Source of the DNA: a virus
IMG/VR virus record: IMGVR_UViG_3300027898_000014
Coordinates: 1 to 51,498 of that record
DNA: 51,498 nucleotides
Strand: one strand, 5' to 3'
Shown: positions 4,336 through 20,153 of the stretch, one piece after another
Layout: each line of letters opens with the position of its first letter
Numbering within the stretch: the stretch's first letter is position 1
Program-made: the position numbers and the translations under genes
Notes under the pieces: model-generated
Database searches by the model: none
Seen by the model: only the letters and a program-made list of their open reading frames with translations
What the model was told of the DNA's origin: nothing

Positions 4336-4683
4336 TTATTTTTCGCCTACGAAATGATGAGCGGCTTCAGTTTCGTCAAGCGTCAATAGGAGAAACATTT
4401 CATACCAAATGTCAAGCCCCAACGCCACGGCCAACGCATGTTCTGCTCTCGCGCCAGGGCTTTTTTCCCAGCCGGCAAGCATGAAAATCGCCTGAGCTTC
4501 ACCGCATATCCAAGATAAGTCGATTTGGAGGTTCGCTCTATAGGATCCTTGGTCGTGCTCCGCCGGGTTGAAGACAAAATGTCCCCACCGGCGGAGCTTT
4601 TCTGCTGCTTGGTGGAACGCGGGAAAATTCAAATCAGGCAAACCGCCCATCGGACCGGCGATGTAGATCTTTTGCGGGGCCAT
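4336..4683 (-). CDS. DUF4406 protein (deoxyribosyltransferase-like fold), 115 aa
   Basis: ATG 4683 with GGAGG upstream. Reads KIYIAGPMGGLPDLNFPAFH near the N-terminus, then FNPAEHD, and MLAGWEKSPGARAEHALA in the C-terminal half. This is the conserved pattern of DUF4406, distantly related to nucleoside 2-deoxyribosyltransferases, with the AGPM turn and the ExS-GA-xE nucleotide-side motif. In phages it usually lies among nucleotide metabolism genes, as here. Substrate not established; enzymatic role is inferred from the fold. Confidence 0.8.
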   Translation of the reverse strand: MAPQKIYIAGPMGGLPDLNFPAFHQAAEKLRRWGHFVFNPAEHDQGSYRANLQIDLSWICGEAQAIFMLAGWEKSPGARAEHALAVALGLDIWYEMFLLLTLDETEAAHHFVGEK

Positions 4684-4684
4684 C

Positions 4685-5266
4685 TCAATTCCTCCTAGCG
4701 ATCGCTGCATGGTCTGCGCAATAACGCGATTTTCCGTCGGAAGGAGCTCCGCAGAATTTGTGTTCTTTCGCGTGGAAAGGGCTGACAGGAAAACGGCAGG
4801 CCTTATCGGGAAGGCTGGCGAAATCGACGCCGCCGTCGAAGGAGACCTCGTCGACAGCGATCGCTAGCTTCGCAGCGCGCTTGATCGGGACATTGCGTTC
4901 TTTCGCTTTATGGAACCGCAGGCCGAGTCGGTGGCTCCGGCCCACAAGAGCGTTCCTGGACAAGCTGGAGTGTCCTTTTTCATAAAAAAGGACAAGAGCC
5001 TCGGCGGCCGACTTGCCGTCCTCGACGACTTTCCTTAAAAAGGCGTCCATTTCGGCTGTCCAGAAGAATTTATCTAATCGAAGTCCCATGCGGTGGCTCC
5101 GTCCTAAGATAGAATACCGCGTGATGTTTTGATAGCCCATTTTATTGAAAATGGAAGCGATTTCTTGGGCGGTTTTTTTCCCGACCGCGAGGTTCCGAAG
5201 TATAGTGTCCATTTCCCGTGTCCAGCGAAATTGAAGAAGCTCGCTAGGATCTAACCTTTTCGTCAT
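4685..5266 (-). CDS. GcrA-like transcription regulator with tandem DNA-binding domains, 193 aa
   Basis: GcrA is the alphaproteobacterial cell-cycle regulator that works with sigma70 holoenzyme at promoters carrying methylated GANTC. The N-terminal GcrA signature (W-T-x-E-M-D...GRSHRxGLR) occurs twice, at residues 15-63 and 69-117. The C-terminal GcrA pattern is present once: CRFPV (157-161), then FCG (171-173) and YCADH (182-186), with cysteines and histidine probably organising the sigma-binding part. Host GcrA has a single N-terminal unit. Start ATG 5266 follows AAGGAAA. A motif-type promoter lies at 5291-5320, so this gene begins its own transcription unit and may drive the downstream small genes. 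Expected role: redirecting host RNA polymerase. Confidence 0.8.
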   Translation of the reverse strand: MTKRLDPSELLQFRWTREMDTILRNLAVGKKTAQEIASIFNKMGYQNITRYSILGRSHRMGLRLDKFFWTAEMDAFLRKVVEDGKSAAEALVLFYEKGHSSLSRNALVGRSHRLGLRFHKAKERNVPIKRAAKLAIAVDEVSFDGGVDFASLPDKACRFPVSPFHAKEHKFCGAPSDGKSRYCADHAAIARRN

Positions 5267-9738: not shown

Positions 9739-10776
9739 TTAGAGTCTGATTGTTAACTGGTCTGATATTTCTCCTACGGTCTGGAAGCTTTCGACGTCGA
9801 CGCCGGCTTCTGCCGCCGCTTCTCGAAGTCCTTTCATATCGTAAGAGGTTCGTCCTTTCACGAAGCTCCAAGTGACGACGCCAGGGACTTTGCGGATTTT
9901 CTGGCTACGGAGCAAGTCCTTGATTTCTTCTTGAAGCGTCCGGTATTTGACCATATCTGTTTCTGATGTCTCTTTCAACTGCTTAGCTTCTTTGCATAGC
10001 TTCTCCACTTTCTCCACGAACGCCGCAGGCAAATCGGTAGGCTCGGCGTAAGCGAGGTCCTCCTTTTTGACCGCTTTGCATCTTGTAGTAAACCCGCAAT
10101 ATGCGCATTCCCCGCCGCCAGCTATGAGGCCTTCGGGGGGAATGTCTTTTGGATCCTTCGCGGTCATGATCGTTTCCGCCCGTTTGTGGGCGTTCGCGTA
10201 GATCTTAGGATCGAACGCGACGACGAATTCTGAAATTTCATGCAAGAAAGACGCGTCGACATAGCTGATGAGGGCGTGGTTCGGTTTGTGCTTAGTCTTC
10301 TCCCGCATTAGGCCCATTTGGACTTGGACTTGGTAAATATGCTGCTCCTTCGCCTTGGCGATCGGGCTCCGCGGATCGATCGACTTAGCTTCCGCGATGA
10401 AGCACCCGCCCGCGATCTTCGGGACGCCATATTCCTTCAAGGCGCTCGGCTTTTGGTTCACGACTAGAGCGTCAGGCGTCGCGGAGAGGTAACCGCGCAT
10501 CAGCGTGTTTTGGCCGACGTCCCCAGCGTAAAGGAGGTCGTCCCCATATTTCGCCCGAAGGGCCGGCACCCAGAAATAATTCTCGATCAACACGCCGCGG
10601 AGTTTCGCGCCATAACGCTCGGTAGAGTCAGCGTCCGGCAAATGGGCTTGCTTCACGAACGCCGTTTTCCTCGCGCACTGGCCGACTTCTGACGCGCCGA
10701 CGGTCTTCGTCCGATCCGAAAAAAACGGCCGGTCGATCGACTTGGCGTAAGCGTCTAAAGCTTCTTTGATGATCAT
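9739..10776 (-). CDS. Cas4/RecB-like PD-(D/E)XK nuclease with probable Fe-S cluster, 345 aa
   Basis: Predicted DNA exonuclease. SATPDALVV supplies the metal-binding aspartate and FIAEAKSID the ExK pair. One cysteine stands near the N-terminus (VGQCARK, Cys34) and three lie close together after the core (ECAYCGFTTRC, about residues 222-231). This 1+3 spacing is that of the 4Fe-4S cluster in Cas4 and AddB. A helical region (KVEKLCKEAKQLKETSE) and a C-terminal segment TWSFVKGRTSYDMKGL follow. ATG 10776 overlaps the stop of the polymerase gene (ATGA), so the two are coupled. Likely role: end processing in replication or recombination, or degradation of host DNA. Confidence 0.8.
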   Translation of the reverse strand: MIIKEALDAYAKSIDRPFFSDRTKTVGASEVGQCARKTAFVKQAHLPDADSTERYGAKLRGVLIENYFWVPALRAKYGDDLLYAGDVGQNTLMRGYLSATPDALVVNQKPSALKEYGVPKIAGGCFIAEAKSIDPRSPIAKAKEQHIYQVQVQMGLMREKTKHKPNHALISYVDASFLHEISEFVVAFDPKIYANAHKRAETIMTAKDPKDIPPEGLIAGGGECAYCGFTTRCKAVKKEDLAYAEPTDLPAAFVEKVEKLCKEAKQLKETSETDMVKYRTLQEEIKDLLRSQKIRKVPGVVTWSFVKGRTSYDMKGLREAAAEAGVDVESFQTVGEISDQLTIRL

Positions 10777-12611
10777 GCTACTTTCCCCCAATTGGGGCCG
10801 ACGCCGCTGTCGACCTTCAAAGGCAAATTCAATTCGACGCACGTCTCCATAAGATGTTTCGCTTCCGCGAAAGCCTCGCGGCCTTCCTTCGTCCGGGGGA
10901 TCGAATAGTCGAGCTCGTCATGCACGGTGAGGTGCGGAACGCCGAGGACTTTCGTCACGCCAGATTTATAGACTGCAAGCATCGACAATTTCATCACGTC
11001 TGCCGCGCTTCCCTGGATCCGCGCGTTGAGGGCTTTGTGGACGAAAGCCCGCCTTGCGCCGATCGTCCCTTCTGGGACAATCTGGAAACCATCTTTCCCT
11101 CCCACAGAAAATTTTTCAAACCGGCGGCGCCGGCCGTAAAGGGTGACGACGTAACCCTGCTTTTTGGCGATGCTAGAAAATCGCTCGGAAAGAGGCTTAG
11201 CGAACGGGACTCGCAGATGATATTTCCTCAACAGCTTTCGACCGCCTTGTTCATCTAAGCCAAGCTGCGAAGAAAGCTTCGCGGCGCCTTCTCCGTAAAG
11301 GATGCCGAAATTGATCGTCTTAGCTTGCGTCCGAGTGACGCCGCACATATCGGCGACGACTTGATGATAGTCGAGGTTTGGATCCCTCTGGTAAGCTTCT
11401 GCGATTGCGTGGGCTTTTCCTAGCTTACAATCTATGGCGTCATTCACAGCCAGCCGAAATTCGACTTGGCTAAAATCTAATTTCCCCCAATCGCACCCCT
11501 TATCGGGGACAAAAAGCGAGCGGATACGCTTGCCGTCTTCTGTCCTGGACGGAATGAATTGGAGGTTCGGAAGGGATGAGCTAAACCGGCCAGAGACCGC
11601 GCCAGTGTCGTCGCTCCGGAGTTGGTTGAAAGACGTGTGGATCGATCCTTCGTAAAGCATGTCGAAAATCACGCCTTCTAGGAAAGTCCCGCGGAGTTTG
11701 TCCAGCTGCCGCACCTCAAGGATGCTTTTCGCCAATGGGTGCGGGCACGCCTTAAGAAAGTCCGCCGTGATCGACGGAGCTTTAGTCTTCGGAGTGCGGG
11801 GATATTCCATGCCGTGCCTGTCGAATAACAGCGCGATTTCTGCAGCCGCCCAGACAGACGCATCGCCGATTTTCTTCTGGAGCTTTTCTTGCCTTTCCGT
11901 AAGTTCAGCATGCATCTTCTTCGCGGCGGGGACGTCGATATGGACGCCGCGGACCCGCATGTCGAGGAGCATCGGGATGAGGCTGCATTCCATCTCGAAC
12001 AAATCCCACAAGGCTTCCGCTTTAAGGATCGGAATTTGCTTTCGGAACACGTAAAGAGTTTGCTCGACGTCGCCGACCGCGTAAGGTTTGACGATATGCG
12101 AAGGCGCGCGCCAGATGTTCGATTTCGGATTTTTCCGCCCGTATTTCGCGATAAGGTAAGCGTTAAGCTCTTCGTCGAATTTTCCCGCACCAAGGTATTT
12201 TTGCGACAAGGCCTCAAGGCTATAAGAAAGGCGGTTTTCGTCGATCAACGGTTCAGCGACTTGAATGTCGTAAAAAGGACCTTTTGGCTCAACACCCATG
12301 AAACGGAGGAACCCGAGGTCGTAAATGATATTCGCCCCGACCTTCGGGACGTCTGTGCTAAGCTCCCGCCGGAGCCATTCAGCAACCTGCCCTTTAGGCA
12401 AATTTGGGCCTTCTTCGTGGCCGATAGGGTAATACTCCCTAAACCCCGCCTCCGTCCCTACAGCGACACCGGCGACATAAGAGCCCTCGCGGAAATATCC
12501 TGGCCCCAATTTCTTGAGGTCAGGATCCTTCGTCTCAAGGTCTATCCCGATATAGCCTTGGCCTTGAAGCGAGGGGAAGGCGGGGCTGTGGAGCCTTGCC
12601 TTTTTTTTCAC
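10773..12611 (-). CDS. Family A DNA polymerase with 3'-5' exonuclease, 612 aa
   Basis: Replicative phage polymerase related to Pol I. Proofreading motifs: GIDLETKDP (Exo I, Asp24 and Glu26), GANIIYDLGF (Exo II), YAVGDVEQTL (Exo III). Polymerase motifs: KLDFSQVEFRLAV (motif A; canonical DYSQIELR, here F for Y), RTQAKTINFGILYGEG (motif B, O-helix with Phe) and LTVHDELDYS (motif C). The 5'-nuclease domain of Pol I is absent, giving the usual phage size. Start is GTG 12611, overlapping the stop of the upstream gene (GTGA); the ribosome binding site is weak, suggesting coupling. Confidence 0.95.
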   Translation of the reverse strand: MKKKARLHSPAFPSLQGQGYIGIDLETKDPDLKKLGPGYFREGSYVAGVAVGTEAGFREYYPIGHEEGPNLPKGQVAEWLRRELSTDVPKVGANIIYDLGFLRFMGVEPKGPFYDIQVAEPLIDENRLSYSLEALSQKYLGAGKFDEELNAYLIAKYGRKNPKSNIWRAPSHIVKPYAVGDVEQTLYVFRKQIPILKAEALWDLFEMECSLIPMLLDMRVRGVHIDVPAAKKMHAELTERQEKLQKKIGDASVWAAAEIALLFDRHGMEYPRTPKTKAPSITADFLKACPHPLAKSILEVRQLDKLRGTFLEGVIFDMLYEGSIHTSFNQLRSDDTGAVSGRFSSSLPNLQFIPSRTEDGKRIRSLFVPDKGCDWGKLDFSQVEFRLAVNDAIDCKLGKAHAIAEAYQRDPNLDYHQVVADMCGVTRTQAKTINFGILYGEGAAKLSSQLGLDEQGGRKLLRKYHLRVPFAKPLSERFSSIAKKQGYVVTLYGRRRRFEKFSVGGKDGFQIVPEGTIGARRAFVHKALNARIQGSAADVMKLSMLAVYKSGVTKVLGVPHLTVHDELDYSIPRTKEGREAFAEAKHLMETCVELNLPLKVDSGVGPNWGKVA

Positions 12612-13362: not shown

Positions 13363-13791
13363 TTATTTTGAAAAAATTAGCAATTCGACGCCGGCCTCAT
13401 CGAAAAGTTCTGAAGATAGGGCGAAGCTCTCCAGCCACTTCGGATCCTGGCTGCTAGGAGGGCAGATCACGCGGGCGACGCCTTTGGCGATGATCGACTT
13501 CGCGCATTCATGGCAAGGAGCGAAAGTCACGACAAGCGTTCCGCCTTTCGCGTCGAAGCGGGCGTTGTCGAGGACGTTCCTCTCTGCATGTTGCGTGAGG
13601 GCGTTCTTCACCGACCTATTGTTCAAGCGTTCTTCAGTGTCTTCGACACCGCGGGGGAACCCATTGAACCCAACGGCGATCTCCCGTCGGTCAGCGCCGA
13701 CGAGGACTGCGCCGACTTTCGTCCTAGGATCTTTGCTCCAGGTCGAAATGTGCTCAGCCAGCTCGAACCATCGGACAATCCAATCAGTCAT
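13363..13791 (-). CDS. dCMP deaminase, 142 aa
   Basis: Zinc-dependent deamination of dCMP to dUMP, feeding thymidylate synthesis. The zinc site is complete: HAE at residues 68-70 (ligand His and catalytic Glu) and PCHEC at 92-96. The N-terminal segment SKDPRTKVGAVLV and GFNGFPRGVED are typical of the family. ATG 13791 follows AGGAG. It lies next to the MazG-like and thymidylate-synthase-fold genes, a deoxynucleotide supply cluster. Confidence 0.92.
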   Translation of the reverse strand: MTDWIVRWFELAEHISTWSKDPRTKVGAVLVGADRREIAVGFNGFPRGVEDTEERLNNRSVKNALTQHAERNVLDNARFDAKGGTLVVTFAPCHECAKSIIAKGVARVICPPSSQDPKWLESFALSSELFDEAGVELLIFSK

Positions 13792-13792
13792 G

Positions 13793-14164
13793 TCATTCTC
13801 CTACAAGGTCGGAATGATCTGGAGGCGTCCAGCCCGGCGGCTTCACGACGTCGAGGGTCGACCCTCTCTTGCTTTGGCTAGCGGACGATACACGGACTTT
13901 CTTCATGTTCGCTTCGTGGACCCGCCGCCAAGCTTCATCGAAGTCGAAGCCTTGCATCACGGCAGTCCCGATCGCGACATAGCAAAGGTCCACGAGGGCG
14001 TCAAGCTGGTCGGCTTTCGTGTCGGCTTCTTTGTATTCTTTGAGTTCTTCTTCCATGAATTTTTCGCGGAAAATCCGCTCGACGTCGTCGAGCCGGCGCG
14101 CCGGCCCGTCGGAAGGAAGGCCGAATTTTCGATGGAAATCTCGGACATCAAGAAAATAGCTCAT
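13793..14164 (-). CDS. MazG-like nucleotide pyrophosphohydrolase, 123 aa
   Basis: Predicted all-alpha NTP pyrophosphatase (MazG / phosphoribosyl-ATP pyrophosphohydrolase superfamily). The metal-binding pattern is EELKEYKEA followed by DQLDALVDLCYVAIG; the C-terminal half (GFDFDEAWRRVHEANMKKV, then KRGS and a GWTPPD ending) matches the phage subgroup. ATG 14164 overlaps the preceding stop (ATGA), with AAGGA upstream. It may remove a competing or unmodified nucleotide, or regulate pools; the substrate cannot be read from sequence. Confidence 0.8.
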   Translation of the reverse strand: MSYFLDVRDFHRKFGLPSDGPARRLDDVERIFREKFMEEELKEYKEADTKADQLDALVDLCYVAIGTAVMQGFDFDEAWRRVHEANMKKVRVSSASQSKRGSTLDVVKPPGWTPPDHSDLVGE

Positions 14165-14946
14165 AGGGGGTCCTTTTCAAAAACGTGGAGGCTTCCGATC
14201 CACATGGAAAAATCGCCAGGAACGACGCCGAGCCAAAACGAGTCCCTTATCCGGAGCTGGTCGAGCACCCAGAGAAGAAGACGGATAGTGAGGTAGCAGT
14301 CGTCGCGGAAATGCCTTGTGAAATCGCAACTCCTCATTAGGTAGAAAACATTGAACTTCCCATCCCGTTGGAGGAAATGATAGCCGAGTGTGCAAGGCTT
14401 CCGCGGCAAGCCGCCGAGATCTTCTGGGTAGAAGATCGGCAAGTAAGCTTGCCGGGTGAAGGGCTGGTCGTCAAGGAGGTTCACAAGATCCTCAAGGTCG
14501 CCGTATGGCCCGCGGGCTCCCCACCGAGGCCGGGGATCTTTCGCCGGGTAACGTCGGATGCGTTCAGGATAGGAAACCGGCAATTTCCCTCCTTCGCTTC
14601 GGTTCGCGAATTTAGGCCAATAACGCTCTGCGTAGGAATGGTCGAACACTGAGGGCTTGAATTTTTCCGCCGATCGGGACCACGGCCAACTAAGCCACGC
14701 GGTCCCAGGGTTCAAAGGCTCCCCGCCGACGCGCTCTTCAAAAGCTTTATCCGCGAACGGAAGGTTCGGCTTGATGTCGTCAGCATAGGCATTGAGTCGT
14801 TCCTCACCCTTAAGATCGACGATAAAGAACTGGTTTGTCATCTCCTTCGTCGAAAGGTTCGCTTCGACGCCCTGCCATTTTTCTGTCTTAACGATTGGGG
14901 CTTCGAGGAGAGCTCCGCGGAAAGCTGTGATTTGGTTCTTGAACAT
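14161..14946 (-). CDS. Thymidylate synthase-fold enzyme, possibly dCMP-specific, 261 aa
   Basis: The C-terminal two thirds carry the ThyA fold: catalytic Cys185 in KPCTLGYHF, the phosphate-binding RSCD at 205-208, and LHVFEKD near the end. Counting eight residues past RSCD, as in ThyA where the pyrimidine-reading Asn stands (RSCD-x7-N), places Asp216 there. Asn to Asp at this site is the known hallmark of dCMP-directed relatives such as T4 dCMP hydroxymethylase. The alignment is ungapped but by eye. The N-terminal 160 residues (KGEERLNAYADDI) are unlike ThyA. ATG 14946 with AAGGA is preferred over TTG 14952. Either a divergent thymidylate synthase or a maker of modified dCMP. Confidence 0.75.
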   Translation of the reverse strand: MFKNQITAFRGALLEAPIVKTEKWQGVEANLSTKEMTNQFFIVDLKGEERLNAYADDIKPNLPFADKAFEERVGGEPLNPGTAWLSWPWSRSAEKFKPSVFDHSYAERYWPKFANRSEGGKLPVSYPERIRRYPAKDPRPRWGARGPYGDLEDLVNLLDDQPFTRQAYLPIFYPEDLGGLPRKPCTLGYHFLQRDGKFNVFYLMRSCDFTRHFRDDCYLTIRLLLWVLDQLRIRDSFWLGVVPGDFSMWIGSLHVFEKDPL

Positions 14947-14948
14947 CG

Positions 14949-15449
14949 TCAATCCTTCTTCAATAATTTTTCTAACCGCACGAGGAGCTGGAGGAAATCG
15001 TCAAGGATCGACGACGGTGTGTCTTCAAGAATGACAGGCGGAACCACGGTAACTTCTTGCTTAGGAAGCTCGTTTATCCTCGAGGAGCCGAATTCTCCGA
15101 TGAGGACATTCGGAGCGTCTGAATGCTTATGGTAACCGCCGAGCCTTGGACGGACAACTACATGCTCCGGCCGGCGGTTAAGCTTAAAGACGACGGAAGG
15201 ATCCTCCATGACGTAAACTAGGCGTTTGCGGTTGTTGGACGAATGGCCGATGCATCGGAACATTTTCTTGCCGCGCCATCGGTAAAGCGCTGCAGATATA
15301 TGGCTTACGTCGAGGGACCATCCGCCGTCCGCGGCGATGTCTTTGATGGTCGTGCTTGTGAAGACGCTTCCCGACGGAAGAGTCTTAATTATTTCGATCG
15401 TCCGCGCCGTGGCGCTTTCCGCTAAAGGCAATTTTTTAAGCTCAACCAT
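14949..15449 (-). CDS. Possible winged-helix protein, 166 aa
   Basis: ATG 15449 follows GGAGG closely. The N-terminal 75 residues (TIKDIAADGGWSLDVSHISAALYRW, KKMFRCIGHSSNNRKRLVY) read as a helix-turn-helix with a wing, as in small phage regulators. A variable linker and a C-terminal helix (ILDDFLQLLVRLEKLLKKD) that could dimerise follow. First gene after the tandem motif at 15470-15497. No family named; DNA binding is an inference. Confidence 0.5.
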   Translation of the reverse strand: MVELKKLPLAESATARTIEIIKTLPSGSVFTSTTIKDIAADGGWSLDVSHISAALYRWRGKKMFRCIGHSSNNRKRLVYVMEDPSVVFKLNRRPEHVVVRPRLGGYHKHSDAPNVLIGEFGSSRINELPKQEVTVVPPVILEDTPSSILDDFLQLLVRLEKLLKKD

Positions 15450-15469
15450 TTTTCCTCCAGGAATATCTT

Positions 15470-15497
15470 TGTAAACCCTTTAATCTCTTAAAGTAAA
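15470..15497 (-). promoter_or_regulatory. Tandem copies of the GGGTTTAC motif
   Basis: Two leftward copies 22 bp apart: TTTACT at 15497-15492 (in CCGGGGTTTACT) and TTTACA at 15475-15470 (in TTAAAGGGTTTACA). The first can pair with TACAAA/TTACAA about 17-18 bp on. The second lies only 20 nt before the start codon at 15449, too close for a -35, so one copy may be a protein-binding site rather than a promoter element. Confidence 0.45.
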
Positions 15498-15510
15498 CCC
15501 CGGAGGAAAC

Positions 15511-15532
15511 AAGCGGCGGACTAACGCCGCTT
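15511..15532 (-). terminator. Probable leftward terminator after the methyltransferase operon
   Basis: Perfect 8-bp stem AAGCGGCG / CGCCGCTT with a 6-nt loop, 13 nt past the stop of the amino-methyltransferase. On the minus strand it is followed by only GTTTCC, a weak U-tract. It separates this operon from the next motif-type promoter region. Confidence 0.5.
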
Positions 15533-15544
15533 ACTGCTGTATTT

Positions 15545-16441
15545 TCAGGAAAGTTTTTTCGCCGCCCGGCCGCCAGGTTTTTTGAACACGACGATCGTCT
15601 GGTAATAAGGCGGGTGGACGCCGCGGGCCGTGAAATATGTGTTCAGGAACAATGTGCCCGGATAATGCTTCAAGAAAGCGGCGCCGACATATTCCATCCC
15701 TAGGTCTTCGAGGATCCTGCAATAGATTTGGTGAAGGAGGAAGGGTTCGCGTTTCCGCATCATGTCTTTAACGCCGACGACGAAATGCCCGCCTGGCTGG
15801 AGGGCTGAAACGCAAGCTTTGTAGATGTCCGTCATCGTTTCGATATAGACGGGACCTTCATTTAGGAAAGCCAGGTTCGGGAGCTTTTTGTCGTAAGCGT
15901 AGAGGATTTGCGGCGGTCCTCCCTTGATGAGCGTGCCGACCGATTTGTCGCCGCTATAGGGGGGATTGTTGACGACCAGCTTGAACTTCTGGTCGACCTT
16001 TTTCAAGAAATCGCCGATGTTCCTCGCGTCGCCTTGGGCGACTTTCGCTTCTGCCGATCCTTTCGGGATCGTGGAGAGAGCTTTCTTGATATTATCGGAA
16101 AGGATTTGCCCGAATTCAAGCTCCATCCCCGCGACGCTTCGCCCTTGAGTCAACGACTCGACGGCCGTCGTCCCGGCGCCGATCGTCGGATCCAGGACCC
16201 AGTCTCCTTTCTTCGAATAAGCTTGGATCGCCCAACGGGCGATATGCAACGGCGTTTTCGCGATGTGCCCGCCTTTGCCTTTTTCCGTCGGGGAATAATA
16301 AGCCCGCCGCTCAAGTCGACTGTAGTATGAGCCGTCCAAAGGACGGAGCTCTCCGATGGCTTTCGAGCACCATGCGCATGCGCAATGATAATCGCCCGGT
16401 ATGTCGCCGTCCCTAACCTCAACTTTATCGCCCATAGACAT
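15545..16441 (-). CDS. DNA N6-adenine or N4-cytosine methyltransferase, 298 aa
   Basis: SAM-dependent amino-methyltransferase. Motif I is VLDPTIGAGTT (residues 82-92), preceded by the motif X region KTPLHIARWAIQAY. Motif IV is NNPPY (158-162), which with I-before-IV order suits the N6-adenine classes. The N-terminus has a CACAWC cluster (Cys20, 22, 25), perhaps a metal knuckle. A long insert after NPPY (GGPPQILYAYDKKLPN) may serve target recognition. ATG 16441 follows GGGAG. No restriction enzyme is adjacent, so it is probably protective or regulatory. Target not predictable. Confidence 0.8.
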   Translation of the reverse strand: MSMGDKVEVRDGDIPGDYHCACAWCSKAIGELRPLDGSYYSRLERRAYYSPTEKGKGGHIAKTPLHIARWAIQAYSKKGDWVLDPTIGAGTTAVESLTQGRSVAGMELEFGQILSDNIKKALSTIPKGSAEAKVAQGDARNIGDFLKKVDQKFKLVVNNPPYSGDKSVGTLIKGGPPQILYAYDKKLPNLAFLNEGPVYIETMTDIYKACVSALQPGGHFVVGVKDMMRKREPFLLHQIYCRILEDLGMEYVGAAFLKHYPGTLFLNTYFTARGVHPPYYQTIVVFKKPGGRAAKKLS

Positions 16442-16455
16442 ATTTTCTTCTCCCT

Positions 16456-17871
16456 TCAGTCAAATTTCAACATCGTAGTAGCCGTCGCGCCGGCAGGCGC
16501 GATCGTTTCTTTAGGCGCCTTTACGGCGCGGGGCGCTTTTGGCGCTTTTGGCGCGTTCGGAACCTTTTCGGCTTTCACGGCAGGGGCCTTAGGAACCTTG
16601 CGGACGGCCGCTTCAGGAGGAGGGGTATAACCGAACCGCCTCCGCCTGACTTCGCACTCCTCAGCCAACCAGCACGCTCCGCAGGCCGCTTCCTGCTTCG
16701 AATAACCCACGTTGTCGCAAAACCAAGTCTTGGCTTCATCGATGAACGGGTCGTTTTTGAGGAGCCGCGTCCCTGCCGCTTTGAAAGGCTGCCGAAGGAC
16801 ATGGGCAGCGACCTGCCGGGCGAAGTATTCATTGAACTGGATCGGCATCGCCTTTCCCGTCATCTTCACCATGTGCATATTGTTTTCGTGGACCCACTGC
16901 CCTTTCTCGTCGAGCTTAGTCCCGTAGAAAACGAAATCGTCGTCGAAACCTTGGATGCGGGCGCGTTCGCGGATCGTGAAGGGGACATTGCGGATCGGGT
17001 GGATCGTCGCGTTGCCGCCGGTGAGGACGTTGCACGGGCCGTCCCATTTAGCTTTGAGGAAACCGATGCGCTTTTTCAGCTCTCCATCTTTATTCAGATA
17101 TTCCATTATCGTCCCTGGAGGCCGGGCGGCGAACCAATCGCGGACGACGCGCCAATTCTCCGATTTTCCTAAGCGCAATATGTTCGTCGAGCGGGGAGAA
17201 ATGACGTCAAGAGCGTGGGGATCATGGTTAGGGTAATTAGATTTCCCTGGCTCGCCTAAACCTTCGAGGACTGACCGAACAGTGCCAGAATGGGCGTGCT
17301 CGTCAGGCCGGAAGGTGAAGCCCTCTTCTTTCTTCGCGCCAAGAACGAACATCCGATCGCGTTTTTTCTGCACATTCCCGTAACCCCAATTCGAAACCGC
17401 TTCAGGAAAAATATCGTAATCCGGCAGGGCGTCGACGTAATCCCGCATCGAGAACGCTTGGAAAGAAGGAGCAAGATTGTCCGCAGCGAAGAACCTCGGT
17501 TGGAGCTTCGCCACGACCTCGAACGTGATCGGAATGTCGCCAGGATCAGTCAAGTCCTCCAGGCGGTCGGCGTTCGCGCCGTTCAATTTCGAAAAATTCC
17601 CGCATTCGCAATGCATGAGGGCAAGCGTCGGGTTCATCAGCCGTTCGACCTCTTCCGGCGTAAGGTCAGACCATTTGTGCTTGAAGACGGCGCCGGGAAA
17701 ATTCTCCGTGAACGTGTTGCGGCCGCGTTCGTCGCGGGCGTGGTAATACTTCCGCCATTCGATGTTCCCGAGCGTCTTGAACCCAGCCTTCGCCGCCCCA
17801 TGGAGCATCGACCCTATGCCAGACGTCACACCGACGGCGGTGAGCTGCGGGACTTCAACTTTCTTTTTCAT
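16456..17871 (-). CDS. Divergent cytosine-C5 methyltransferase family protein, 471 aa
   Basis: SAM-binding start VTSGIGSMLHGAAKAGFKTLGNIEW is the Dcm motif I/II region. Motif IV, usually PCQxFS, reads HCECGNFS (87-94): Cys90 could be the catalytic cysteine in ECGNFS, but the preceding Pro and following Gln are lost. Motif VI, usually ENV, reads DNL (131-133). QKKRDRMFVLG (168-178) fits motif VIII (QxRxR). RIQGFDDDF and KMTGKAMPIQF fit IX-X. A four-cysteine segment AACGACWLAEEC and a Lys/Ala/Pro tail follow. ATG 17871 overlaps the upstream stop. Either an atypical methyltransferase or a related enzyme with changed chemistry. Confidence 0.75.
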   Translation of the reverse strand: MKKKVEVPQLTAVGVTSGIGSMLHGAAKAGFKTLGNIEWRKYYHARDERGRNTFTENFPGAVFKHKWSDLTPEEVERLMNPTLALMHCECGNFSKLNGANADRLEDLTDPGDIPITFEVVAKLQPRFFAADNLAPSFQAFSMRDYVDALPDYDIFPEAVSNWGYGNVQKKRDRMFVLGAKKEEGFTFRPDEHAHSGTVRSVLEGLGEPGKSNYPNHDPHALDVISPRSTNILRLGKSENWRVVRDWFAARPPGTIMEYLNKDGELKKRIGFLKAKWDGPCNVLTGGNATIHPIRNVPFTIRERARIQGFDDDFVFYGTKLDEKGQWVHENNMHMVKMTGKAMPIQFNEYFARQVAAHVLRQPFKAAGTRLLKNDPFIDEAKTWFCDNVGYSKQEAACGACWLAEECEVRRRRFGYTPPPEAAVRKVPKAPAVKAEKVPNAPKAPKAPRAVKAPKETIAPAGATATTMLKFD

Positions 17872-18104
17872 TCCTGCACCTCAATTAAATGCCAAGCGGC
17901 GTCTCCAAATGAAACGCTGATTAAATGGCGCCCTTTATAAGTTTCCCCCGTGCCGACGATCTTCACTTGGCGCCGTGGCCTATATGGGACAAACCATATG
18001 GCGAAATGATCGCCGTGGAACGAGAAATGGACGACTTCACCGTCGATCGTCGAAGGTTTATCTATAGACGAAATCGAGATATTCATCCGATTAATGACGC
18101 TCAT
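17868..18104 (-). CDS. Hypothetical beta-rich protein, 78 aa
   Basis: Sandwiched by ATGA overlaps between the asparagine synthetase-like and C5-methyltransferase genes, so the three are certainly one translation-coupled unit. GGAG lies upstream of ATG 18104. The sequence alternates strands (VVHFSFHGDHFAIWFV, QVKIVGTGETYKGRHLISVSFG), suggesting a small beta barrel. Unrecognised; perhaps an accessory subunit of one of its neighbours. Confidence 0.55.
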   Translation of the reverse strand: MSVINRMNISISSIDKPSTIDGEVVHFSFHGDHFAIWFVPYRPRRQVKIVGTGETYKGRHLISVSFGDAAWHLIEVQE

Positions 18105-19351
18105 AGCCAGATCTCCCGGAAAAGCTTGACCAGCCGGATGCTATGGGCCTCGCGGTCGAAGCCAGCCGGGCGCAAGGGCTTCTTCTCGACGTCGTTGGGC
18201 CATATATCCCTAAGGATCTTTTTGTTAGGCGCGTAAGGGGCGGCTAAAGCCAGCTGGGCCATCCTTCGGCTAAGGAAGGGAGACCGGTATTCGACGGCCT
18301 TCCGCATCATCACCCGATCGAGCCGCGGAAGGTGGTAACAGACAAGCTCGTGGAACACGTCCGAATAACGGCTGTCATATCGTGCAGCCCGTCCGTAGCC
18401 GCCGAAGAATTCATCGGCGCCGTCGCCGCCGAGGCAGACGTTTTCTTTCACGGCTTCCGCCATGAGGATTTGGGCTTCCACCGATCCAAGGTCGACAGGT
18501 TCTTGCATCCAGAGGAGGATCTCAAGATCCGTCGGCGGGGCGGCCGTCGGCACGACGCGGAGAGACGGACCTGCGATAGATTGGGCGACGCCAAGCTCTC
18601 CGGTGAGGCCGATGTGGTAAGGGACGATGTCGCCGTATTCCCGCGCAGTCCGATAGACCAAAGACGAGTCATATCCGCCGGAAAGGAGGCAGGCGACGGG
18701 GACGTCTGACGATTGGACGCGGAGGCGGACAGCTTCTTCAAAAGCGTATTTGAGGGCTTCGGGAGAATAGTCGTCGGCGATGAAAACTGGATCCGCATGC
18801 TCCATCTGGCGTTCGGGCAACGACACGGAATGGCCCGGAAGGACTTTCTTAATCCTCGTGAACGGCGTGCGGCTTTGGTCCGGGCAATAGCCCCATTTCA
18901 TCACGTCAGAAAGAAAAACCTCGTCGAAATCTTCTCCTTCTTCGACCAAAGGCCATAGCTCGCTGCACGCCCGAGAATGCGTGTAGAAGATCGGCTTCTG
19001 GGCGAGGTAGTCGGCGATCAGCGTGATGCGGCCGTGCCGGTGGTAGGCGACTGACCAAAATCCGTCGAACCCTTGGAACCCGCGGACGCCGAAGTCGCGG
19101 AGGGTCCTAAACGCGAGCATCGTGTCGCCGAGCTCATCCGTGAAATCTCTAAAATTAAGCAATTCGCCGACGAAACAGAATTCCTCGTCGAAGATCGTGA
19201 TCGGTTGCTCGAAGCTCCCGACGATCGGCAACCTCGCGAACGCTGAATGCCGAGTGACACGGGGCGGGAGAGTCCCGCGGTGGGAGATCGCCGCGGCAGC
19301 CTTCATAAGCCACGGATCGTCGGGGAGGAGGGACATCGCGAAGCCGCACAT
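18101..19351 (-). CDS. Asparagine synthetase (AsnB)-like glutamine amidotransferase, 416 aa
   Basis: Two-domain enzyme. Start MCGF gives Cys2, the N-terminal nucleophile of class II glutaminases. The glutamine-site pattern ARLPIVG (Arg40) and VGE (Glu63) is present, but the Asn of the usual NGE is Val here, and the domain is short. The C-terminal synthetase domain has the PP-loop LLSGGYDSS (222-230) and CLGGDGADEFFGGYG (306-320), with EYRSPFL further on. At 416 aa it is well below the roughly 550 of bacterial AsnB. GGGAG precedes ATG 19351. In a phage, coupled to DNA methyltransferases, it may amidate a nucleotide or base rather than make asparagine; that is inference. Confidence 0.8.
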   Translation of the reverse strand: MCGFAMSLLPDDPWLMKAAAAISHRGTLPPRVTRHSAFARLPIVGSFEQPITIFDEEFCFVGELLNFRDFTDELGDTMLAFRTLRDFGVRGFQGFDGFWSVAYHRHGRITLIADYLAQKPIFYTHSRACSELWPLVEEGEDFDEVFLSDVMKWGYCPDQSRTPFTRIKKVLPGHSVSLPERQMEHADPVFIADDYSPEALKYAFEEAVRLRVQSSDVPVACLLSGGYDSSLVYRTAREYGDIVPYHIGLTGELGVAQSIAGPSLRVVPTAAPPTDLEILLWMQEPVDLGSVEAQILMAEAVKENVCLGGDGADEFFGGYGRAARYDSRYSDVFHELVCYHLPRLDRVMMRKAVEYRSPFLSRRMAQLALAAPYAPNKKILRDIWPNDVEKKPLRPAGFDREAHSIRLVKLFREIWL

Positions 19352-19503
19352 TATTTCGCTCCCCGATGGGTCTTCACGGGCTTCACCGCGCTCTTTTTTT
19401 GTTCCTTGATTTTTCTTTTCCGCTCCCACGCGGCCTTCATCGCTGAAGACATATTCTTGCGGTGCTCGTCAGACCACCCGTCGCTACGCTTATCTTTTAG
19501 CAT
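19351..19503 (-). CDS. Basic microprotein with NUMOD-like pattern, 50 aa
   Basis: ATG 19503 with GGAGGG; the stop overlaps the next ATG (TAATG). The sequence SDEHRKNMSSAMKAAWERK resembles NUMOD3-type DNA-contact segments found in homing nucleases, and the remainder is Lys-rich. Probably a small nucleic-acid-binding peptide; it may also be a relic of a homing endonuclease. Overlaps the gene upstream by 14 nt. Confidence 0.5.
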   Translation of the reverse strand: MLKDKRSDGWSDEHRKNMSSAMKAAWERKRKIKEQKKSAVKPVKTHRGAK

Positions 19504-19765
19504 TAAACCCTCCTGCGATATACTTGCGGACCAACCCCGCATAACCCATAATGTCTGCCCAGTGGTCGTCGAACGACCAATTCCCGCTGACGACTCGGGC
19601 GATTTTGTGGAGGATCATCTTGATGGCGATTTTGGCGACGGGTGGCAATTTGTCCCAATTTACGCCAGAATAGGCGGCGCGCTCTAACGCTATGTTCACT
19701 TCCGCCACATCGGGGAAGTCTCCATGGGTCGTCTGGCGTTCTTTGAGTATTTGATCCGTGTCCAT
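19490..19765 (-). CDS. DUF6378-like protein, 91 aa
   Basis: ATG 19765 with AAGGAG. The pattern KERQTTHGDFPDVAEVN, MILHKIARVVSGN and DHWADIMGYAGL is that of a small phage protein family (DUF6378) common beside nucleotide metabolism genes; the two helices with conserved His/Asp recall MazG-like pyrophosphatases. Function is not established. Family name given from memory of the motif. Confidence 0.7.
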   Translation of the reverse strand: MDTDQILKERQTTHGDFPDVAEVNIALERAAYSGVNWDKLPPVAKIAIKMILHKIARVVSGNWSFDDHWADIMGYAGLVRKYIAGGFNAKR

Positions 19766-19805: not shown

Positions 19806-20153
19806 ATGGGGAAAGCCGACGCCGGCCTTCGAGCTAAGTTCCAGAAAAACTTGAAGCGGCGCCAATTCACGCCGATCGAGTCATATGTGTCTTGGGGCGT
19901 CCCAGATTGCCATGTCCTCTTCCACGGCGGGATCGACGTATGGATCGAATTCAAGCGCAAAGGGAAACCGCTCCGCCCAGGCCAAAAGGGCTGGCTCCAA
20001 CGACGGTCCTCTTTAGGAGGCCGATGCTTCATCGTCGAGGGCGACCAATTTGCCACGGCGATATACGAAGGCAGAGACATTGAAATGGAAGTTCCTATCT
20101 ACGCCGGTCCATACGATTGGCCGACGATCCAGAAAATTTTGTCAGGGCCGTAA
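19806..20153 (+). CDS. VRR-NUC family nuclease, 115 aa
   Basis: Single rightward gene within a leftward region. VRR-NUC is the minimal PD-(D/E)XK fold found in FAN1 and phage Holliday-junction-type nucleases. The metal site is GVPDCHV (Pro33-Asp34) and WIEFKRKG (Glu48, Lys50), then Gln60 in LRPGQKGWL. FQKNLKRRQFTPIES is the usual N-terminus, supporting the ATG at 19806 despite a poor ribosome binding site (GAAAG). Phage VRR-NUC proteins are often partnered with SNF2-like ATPases; one is encoded at 7.3-8.9 kb here. Its 3' end overlaps the opposing gene by 12 bp. Confidence 0.8.
   Translation: MGKADAGLRAKFQKNLKRRQFTPIESYVSWGVPDCHVLFHGGIDVWIEFKRKGKPLRPGQKGWLQRRSSLGGRCFIVEGDQFATAIYEGRDIEMEVPIYAGPYDWPTIQKILSGP

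Follow-up and report, generated by a model that had tools for sequence, protein, structure and literature searches.

A candidate cytosine hypermodification cassette with a Lys-type C5-methyltransferase relative, an AsnB-like ligase and a ThyA-fold enzyme in an IMG/VR virus

Known systems and the layout of the locus

In the synthesis of 5-hydroxymethylcytosine (5hmC) by phage T4, the deoxycytidine monophosphate (dCMP) hydroxymethylase gp42 is accompanied by a dCTPase and a dCMP deaminase. Synechococcus phage S-B43 makes 5-carboxymethylcytosine (5cxmC) and its glycine amide through CmoX, a cytosine carboxymethyltransferase, and CmoY, a glycine-adding AsnB-like ligase, with the carboxylate arriving on carboxy-S-adenosylmethionine (Cx-SAM), the product of the synthase CmoA (PMC12783734). 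The published CmoX survey demanded an SPPC motif and Arg350, and ligases of a second cluster, which have a glutamine-hydrolyzing domain, were also described (PMC12783734). Here we analyze IMG/VR virus record IMGVR_UViG_3300027898_000014, positions 1 to 51,498 (the whole stretch of 51,498 nucleotides, which we call the window), and in it a minus-strand gene cluster at 13363-19351 that is very probably a dedicated cytosine hypermodification cassette.

The locus shares features with both systems. As in S-B43, an enzyme of the C5-methyltransferase fold (a C5-cytosine-methyltransferase relative, hereafter C5MT), which retains the catalytic Cys and is basic at the position of M.HhaI Asn304, is coupled to an AsnB-family ligase, and the predicted glutamine-hydrolyzing domain of this ligase recalls the second ligase cluster of PMC12783734. 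As in T4, an enzyme with Asp at the pyrimidine-reading site has a MazG-like phosphohydrolase and a dCMP deaminase alongside. The cassette differs from S-B43, which has no PF00303 match, in possessing this Asp-type ThyA enzyme, and from T4 in containing the C5MT and AsnB-like genes, while Pfam and PHROG searches detected no glucosyltransferase among the window proteins scanned (up to 24859 on the plus strand). The first-pass annotation of this DNA had not recognized the coupling of the AsnB-like gene to a C5-methyltransferase through the 78-aa ORF from any described pathway; an AsnB/C5-methyltransferase pair had been published in December 2025 as CmoX/CmoY (PMC12783734). AsnB beside a C5-methyltransferase is already known, and a set combining a Lys-type C5MT with a ThyA-like enzyme would be a new branch. 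We found no paper on the Lys-type C5MT family or on the AsnB/C5MT/ThyA trio in the open-access literature (subscription papers mostly lay outside the scope of this search). The cassette comprises the following genes and open reading frames (ORFs):

13363-13791, minus strand: dCMP deaminase (phrog_174, 3.6e-41)
13793-14164, minus strand: MazG-like all-alpha NTP pyrophosphohydrolase (Pfam PRA-PH, 5.9e-13)
14161-14952, minus strand: ThyA-fold enzyme, predicted dCMP hydroxymethylase, with a TTG start (Pfam Thymidylat_synt, 8.6e-6; phrog_160)
14949-15449, minus strand: 166-aa ORF between the ThyA-fold gene and the N-methyltransferase gene
15545-16441, minus strand: N6/N4-type amino-methyltransferase (Pfam N6_N4_Mtase, 1.3e-15; motifs DPTIGAGTT and NNPPY)
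16456-17871, minus strand: C5MT, 471 aa (Pfam DNA_methylase, 4.9e-11)
17868-18104, minus strand: 78-aa ORF between the AsnB-like and C5MT genes (weak DUF7352 match, 0.0021, below cut-off)
18101-19351, minus strand: AsnB-like amidotransferase/ligase, 416 aa (Pfam Asn_synthase, 3e-22)

All genes named in the first-pass annotation are present, and the nearly unbroken order that it described holds, with four junctions overlapping by 4 bases and the other three separated by gaps of +1, +14 and +95; its list omitted the 166-aa ORF. The AsnB-like gene is taken to start at the ATG giving MCGF, the mechanical ORF being longer (GTG at 19429). Its product has a predicted class-II glutaminase domain, with Cys directly after the initiator Met, followed by a PP-loop synthetase domain (SGGYDS, GDGADE). 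The N-terminal Cys is present in 43/43 covered rows of the family alignment and the Gly of the oxyanion Asn-Gly pair in 45/45, the Asn of that pair being Val in most rows. The protein scores 112.2 bits against TIGR01536 (glutamine-hydrolyzing asparagine synthase), below the curated cut-off of 267.1, and PADLOC, run on six cassette proteins, returned nothing closer for it than the AsnB family.

Recurrence of the cassette in related viral loci

Two scans of viral contigs with the C5MT yielded 49 non-self loci, which form 42 C5MT clusters at 90% identity. Profile searches of the flanks placed an AsnB-like gene near the C5MT in 45 of the 49 loci (39 of the 42 clusters) and a ThyA-like gene in 46 (41 clusters). 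Because of this recurrence, the AsnB-like gene and the C5MT are a real unit, beyond chance, in agreement with the coupling proposed earlier. The trio of AsnB-like, C5MT and ThyA-like genes occurs in five different linear orders. The three loci without a ThyA-like gene (L015, L018 and L028) end near the C5MT at a contig end, and in L041, which at first appeared to carry AsnB without C5MT, the C5MT lies just past the first stretch compared. A dCMP deaminase was found in 37 of the 49 loci, the MazG family of the window in 13 and an N6/N4-type methyltransferase, which is an optional companion of the cassette, in 19; at other C5MT loci a different dUTPase_2-type gene adjoins AsnB.

A phmmer search (E≤1) of 53 related loci gave no homolog of the 78-aa ORF, which the first-pass annotation had placed as the link between the AsnB-like gene and the C5MT. 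It is therefore not the coupling element; it lies inside the operon without being a conserved part of the module. The 166-aa ORF, also situated within the operon, has no Pfam or PHROG match and likewise no homolog in the 53 loci, and both were ruled out as module parts.

Two variant arrangements of the methyltransferase genes were also seen. The C5MT and the N6/N4-type methyltransferase are fused in one ORF in L026 (7992-10256) and L054 (7962-10271), and L020 (6490-9266) and L021 (4389-6826) each carry two tandem C5MT-family genes, which perhaps have different sequence targets.

The cluster could in principle be an assembly of ordinary parts, with methylation serving anti-restriction, a metabolic AsnB, a ThyA-like enzyme, deaminase and MazG protein serving nucleotide supply, and nearness reflecting operon packing. 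Each gene does come from a common superfamily, and the ThyA-like family is itself common, with 115 phage records. In seven ThyA-like phage records that we inspected, the ThyA-like gene is accompanied by a DNA polymerase gene and one of the MazG/dUTPase type (7/7), an annotated dCMP or cytidine deaminase lies near it in 5/7, and neither AsnB nor C5MT occurs in the stretch compared, so that this module also exists in phages without them. We nevertheless hold this explanation to be highly improbable, given that AsnB accompanies the C5MT in nearly every cluster and in varied orders, that no AsnB (PF00733) was detected in any of the seven ThyA-like records without C5MT, that the AsnB-like protein falls below the asparagine-synthase cut-off and that the C5MT motifs are changed in 50/50 sequences. 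In several phages without AsnB and C5MT, a hypothetical gene lies directly upstream of the ThyA-like gene (L003 5216-6004, L004 5102-5941, L006 5132-5941, L007 3910-4971 and L008 4087-4959) and is possibly part of a base pathway of their own.

Active sites of the C5MT and the ThyA-fold enzyme

The most informative feature of the cassette, overlooked in the first-pass annotation, is the rebuilt active site of the C5MT. Among 50 distinct sequences (two L024 fragments left out), Cys81, Arg163 and Arg165 in M.HhaI numbering are each kept in 50/50, while four other positions are each exchanged in 50/50: Gln82 to Gly, Glu119 to Asp, Asn304 to Lys and Val306 to Met. The window protein accordingly retains its catalytic Cys as Cys90 and has Gly91, Asp131, Lys340 and Met342 at the four exchanged positions, of which those of M.HhaI residues 82 and 304 presumably face the pocket that receives the group being transferred. 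None of the exchanges occurs in a reference set of 29 cellular C5-methyltransferases of one bacterial class, in which Glu119 and Asn304 are found in 29/29 and Gly82 and Met306 in 0/29. The canonical PPC, ENV and GN(A/S)V motifs are thus altered in the C5MT family (Glu119 or Asn304 in 0/50), and the Pro before the catalytic Cys is replaced by Glu, Asp or Lys, the window motif being HCEC. The structural model of the C5MT (predicted local distance difference test [pLDDT], 84.5) aligned best with 3g7u in VIA-align (Z, 26.9) and also with CmoX 8yf3 (Z, 25.4; root-mean-square deviation, 3.6; 292 aligned). In a tree, the 50 members group on a long stem (1.34) with gp301 of Bacillus phage G as sister, but the node support is only 0.36, and we therefore claim a residue signature and not a well-supported clade.

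Two further columns were set aside. The loss of the SAM-stacking Phe18 (Thr or Ile in 46/50) was dropped as proof of independence from S-adenosylmethionine (SAM), this position being Cys in 7/29 of the cellular references, and the Asp60 column, which has no reliable alignment, was not relied on as evidence of SAM loss. The phage G protein (L115 5938-7218) is itself an unusual C5-methyltransferase relative, in which ENV reads ENA and Asn304 is replaced by Gln. A C-terminal Cys cluster at C5MT residues 385-406 (C-x11-C-x2-C-x5-C), possibly a zinc or iron-sulfur site, recurs in many relatives but not in the L027-L033 lineages.

Comparison with CmoX sets the two enzymes apart. Where CmoX has Arg350, the C5MT has Lys in 50/50; the motif of the window family is of the H-P-E-C type, not SPPC; and Asp stands in place of Glu119. 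Gene content differs as well. A search for CmoA (TIGR00740, E≤10) gave no match in 50 viral records, many of them fragments, and recovered SpCmoA of S-B43 at 2.5e-34 as a positive control; phmmer with SpCmoA likewise found nothing in 53 window-type loci. Because so many of the viral records are fragmentary, a single absence of CmoA means little, but fifty together mean more. In the genome collection a single locus, L049 (RPRB01000006.1), is filed in a metagenome-assembled genome of Myxococcaceae and is either a prophage or a mis-binned phage; in this genome TIGR00740 matched only weakly (best E, 0.013). For the CmoX side we used the 80 best of 362 SpCmoX relatives (at least 86% identity, one narrow group). 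CmoA is present in 63/80 of these loci (26/29 among those of 8 kb or more) and a ThyA-like gene in 0/80 (0/29 of 8 kb or more), while 48/80 have a protein matched by the window AsnB model, 39 of the 48 with a Met-Cys-Gly-type start. On the grounds of its active-site residues and of CmoA not being found, we rejected the C5MT as a true CmoX, and the cassette appears to belong to a different branch from CmoX/CmoY.

The C5MT might still follow a CmoX-like route, using host Cx-SAM on unmodified cytosine, with AsnB then producing 5-carbamoylmethylcytosine and the ThyA-like enzyme serving another purpose or modifying only part of the cytosines. Lys340 sits at the CmoX Arg350 position, which is also the site at which engineered M.MpeI N374K gained use of Cx-SAM, and host CmoA is enough for CmoX in Escherichia coli (PMC12783734). 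AsnB-type ligases, moreover, go with both branches. We consider this route rather unlikely as a whole. CmoA was found in none of the viral records but in most near-CmoX loci, and the dCMP-directed ThyA-like enzyme shows the reverse distribution (41/42 clusters against 0/80 loci); such an enzyme would deprive CmoX of the unoccupied C5 on which it depends; and three features kept in CmoX, namely Glu119, Val306 and the Pro that precedes Cys81, are altered in the C5MT. A GcrA-like gene in the window further suggests an alphaproteobacterial host, GcrA being typical of Alphaproteobacteria, and to our knowledge CmoA is not known from that class.

The ThyA-fold enzyme carries its own diagnostic residues. 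Asp occupies the position of E. coli ThyA Asn177 (Asp217 in the window) in 40/40 rows and in 49/49 cassette-locus rows of an RSCD-anchored alignment, and the same Asp is seen in a profile alignment to MilA and AfhB, bearing out the earlier assignment of Asp to the pyrimidine-reading site. Cys186 and Asp209 of the window protein correspond to E. coli Cys146 and Asp169; the catalytic Cys146 is kept in all rows, Asp169 (of the RSCD motif) in 49/49, and His147 is replaced by Thr or Ser in 49/49. With Asp at the pyrimidine-reading site in every aligned relative, the enzyme should act on dCMP. In the MetaGPA study, no ThyA positions were more strongly linked to cytosine modification of phage contigs than 177 and 147, and the main text names no asparagine synthase (PMC8670742).

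Whether the enzyme hydroxymethylates or hydroxylates dCMP bears on the rest of the pathway. In profile comparison with the PDB, AfhB scored 49.2 bits, MilA 47.5 and T4 dCMP hydroxymethylase a weaker 28.9; thymidylate synthases rank after AfhB and MilA and are led by the N229D mutant (37.3 bits), whose entry holds dCMP. For the structural model (pLDDT, 82.6), Foldseek placed MilA 5b6d first. MilA, a CMP 5-hydroxymethylase that we take to act on CMP in antibiotic synthesis, shares with the window enzyme the ThyA fold, the Asp at the Asn177 position and Asp169, at 17% identity in the structure alignment. AfhB, a phage dCMP hydroxylase, shares the fold and the Asp at the Asn177 position but has Asn at the Asp169 position, and its solved entry contains bound FAD. 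If the window enzyme were an AfhB-like flavin hydroxylase, the DNA would carry 5-hydroxycytosine, on which the C5MT and AsnB would act. AfhB (9iqu, 9iqc) is narrowly the best profile match and is structurally tied with the alternatives, and such enzymes are reported to make 5-hydroxy-dCMP for arabinosylated phage DNA (PMC13390438). The first rank of MilA in Foldseek and the retention of Asp169 speak for a different assignment. This residue, which presumably contacts folate, is kept in 49/49 rows and in MilA, so that a folate enzyme, and hence hydroxymethylation, is favored. We regard the flavin hydroxylase as improbable and the ThyA-fold protein as most likely a dCMP hydroxymethylase, as predicted from its residues.

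Proposed chemistry and neighboring genes

We give about even chances to a three-step logic that ends with a carboxylate amidated by AsnB. In the first step, to judge from its residues, the Asp-type ThyA enzyme would convert dCMP to 5-hydroxymethyl-dCMP, which would be phosphorylated and incorporated into DNA, with the dCMP deaminase and the MazG-like protein, the latter in a putative dCTPase/dUTPase role, controlling the pools of dCTP, dCMP and dUMP. (A search for thymidylate kinase, PF02223, in 12 cassette records gave partial matches below cut-off in 5 and none in 7.) In the second, the C5MT would flip out the modified cytosine, Cys90 would attack C6, and the pocket with Gly91, Asp131 and Lys340 would allow a carboxylate-bearing group to be installed on the base, Lys340 holding the carboxylate much as Arg350 does in CmoX. 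In the third, by analogy with CmoY, the AsnB-like enzyme would activate the carboxylate with ATP and then amidate it, the nitrogen most simply being ammonia from glutamine. For AsnB, which is common to both systems, the simplest role is to amidate a carboxylate that its partner of the C5-methyltransferase fold has put in place. Since the cassette has a dCMP hydroxymethylase-like enzyme where S-B43 has CmoA, hydroxymethylcytosine, its C5 already occupied, is probably the substrate.

A dedicated C5MT that joins a Lys340-held carboxylated nucleophile to 5hmC would explain all three genes. We know of no natural C5-methyltransferase dedicated to derivatizing 5hmC. C5-methyltransferases are reported to derivatize 5hmC covalently with thiols in vitro, for example M.SssI with cysteamine (PMC7176277), which is likewise a covalent change of 5hmC with an added nucleophile but an in vitro side reaction. 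We tentatively suggest that the C5MT keeps its fold and Cys chemistry and no longer alkylates cytosine, that it opens 5hmC, expels the 5-hydroxyl with Lys340 assisting and attaches an amino acid or other carboxylated nucleophile to the methylene, and that AsnB amidates the result. A possible product is glycinamide-methyl cytosine, which would parallel in DNA the cmnm5U family of tRNA. A doubtful refinement is that the donor is specifically an amino acid, for example glycine, which displaces the 5-hydroxyl. The modified or further amidated cytosine foreseen by the first-pass annotation is accordingly retained in part: the Asp-type ThyA enzyme and the coupled AsnB argue for it at the level of sequence, the final amide is a prediction, and the 78-aa link falls away.

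Several observations weigh against the proposed route. The strongest objections are the possible feeding of the reaction by a host CmoA, as E. coli CmoA can supply CmoX (PMC12783734), and the kept SAM-contact residues: Glu40 (M.HhaI) is still Glu in 44/50 and Trp41 still Trp in 46/50 C5MT sequences, which is what continued binding of a SAM-type cofactor would predict. In 33/45 AsnB rows Val replaces the oxyanion Asn of the glutaminase, and the 339-aa AsnB-like protein of L063 (6049-7065) seemingly lacks the glutaminase domain, as does SpCmoY; ammonia is therefore uncertain as the nitrogen donor. Among the four loci without AsnB (L064, L065, L068 and L069), whose whole records (4 to 51 kb) contain no PF00733 match, L064 is a 4-kb contig and the other three have no obvious contig-end reason. 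On the ThyA side, Glu is found in the poorly aligned Glu58 column in only 20/49 rows, and structure was discarded as a separator of hydroxymethylase, hydroxylase and ThyA, with MilA-like enzymes, AfhB-like enzymes and ordinary synthases tied (in VIA-align, thymidylate synthases and AfhB both score Z 17 to 18). When 50,697 phage records were queried with five C5MT sequences, the matches listed included no isolated phage that carries the cassette. Those matches reach about 28% identity or less; in the three inspected, Glu119 is kept, the residue at the Asn304 position is not Lys, and the stretch compared contains neither AsnB nor a ThyA-like gene.

Some of these loci show individual arrangements. 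The AsnB-like gene of L063 adjoins the C5MT, a kinase-like ORF and the ThyA-like gene, and a scan with this glutaminase-less protein matched only itself. The C5MT adjoins the ThyA-like gene, with AsnB not found, in L065 (6554-9431), L068 (5291-7356) and L069 (2565-4631); the similar L070 has AsnB.

If the proposed route is correct, one pathway would unite two logics of phage cytosine hypermodification, one built on a hydroxyl handle (5hmC) and the other on a carboxyl handle (5cxmC), and a small number of fixed active-site changes would have redirected a methyltransferase to a different reaction. The C5MT family can be tested for directly in sequence by its Gly/Asp/Lys/Met signature, and an enzyme that derivatizes 5hmC would help to map this base.

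Other genes of interest in the window are the following:

10773-12611, minus strand: family A DNA polymerase, downstream of the cassette (Pfam DNA_pol_A, 1.8e-66)
19490-19765, minus strand: DUF6378 gene, upstream of the AsnB-like gene (Pfam DUF6378, 6e-7)
4685-5266, minus strand: GcrA-like cell-cycle regulator (Pfam, 9.8e-18; 52 bits, under the NCBIfam cut-off)
4336-4710, minus strand: DUF4406 gene, matching nucleoside 2-deoxyribosyltransferase PHROGs
19806-20153, plus strand: small nuclease-like ORF with endonuclease and Holliday-resolvase PHROG matches

The family A polymerase presumably copies the modified nucleotide, and the GcrA-like gene perhaps has a part in methylation-linked control of the host. 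The DUF6378 gene is a recurrent neighbor, its BLAST cluster occurring in 8 loci including the window. The nuclease-like ORF lies on the strand opposite to the surrounding minus-strand cluster. A 67-kb IMG/VR contig, IMGVR_UViG_3300006162_000012, matches the window genes at 100% over the three stretches compared.

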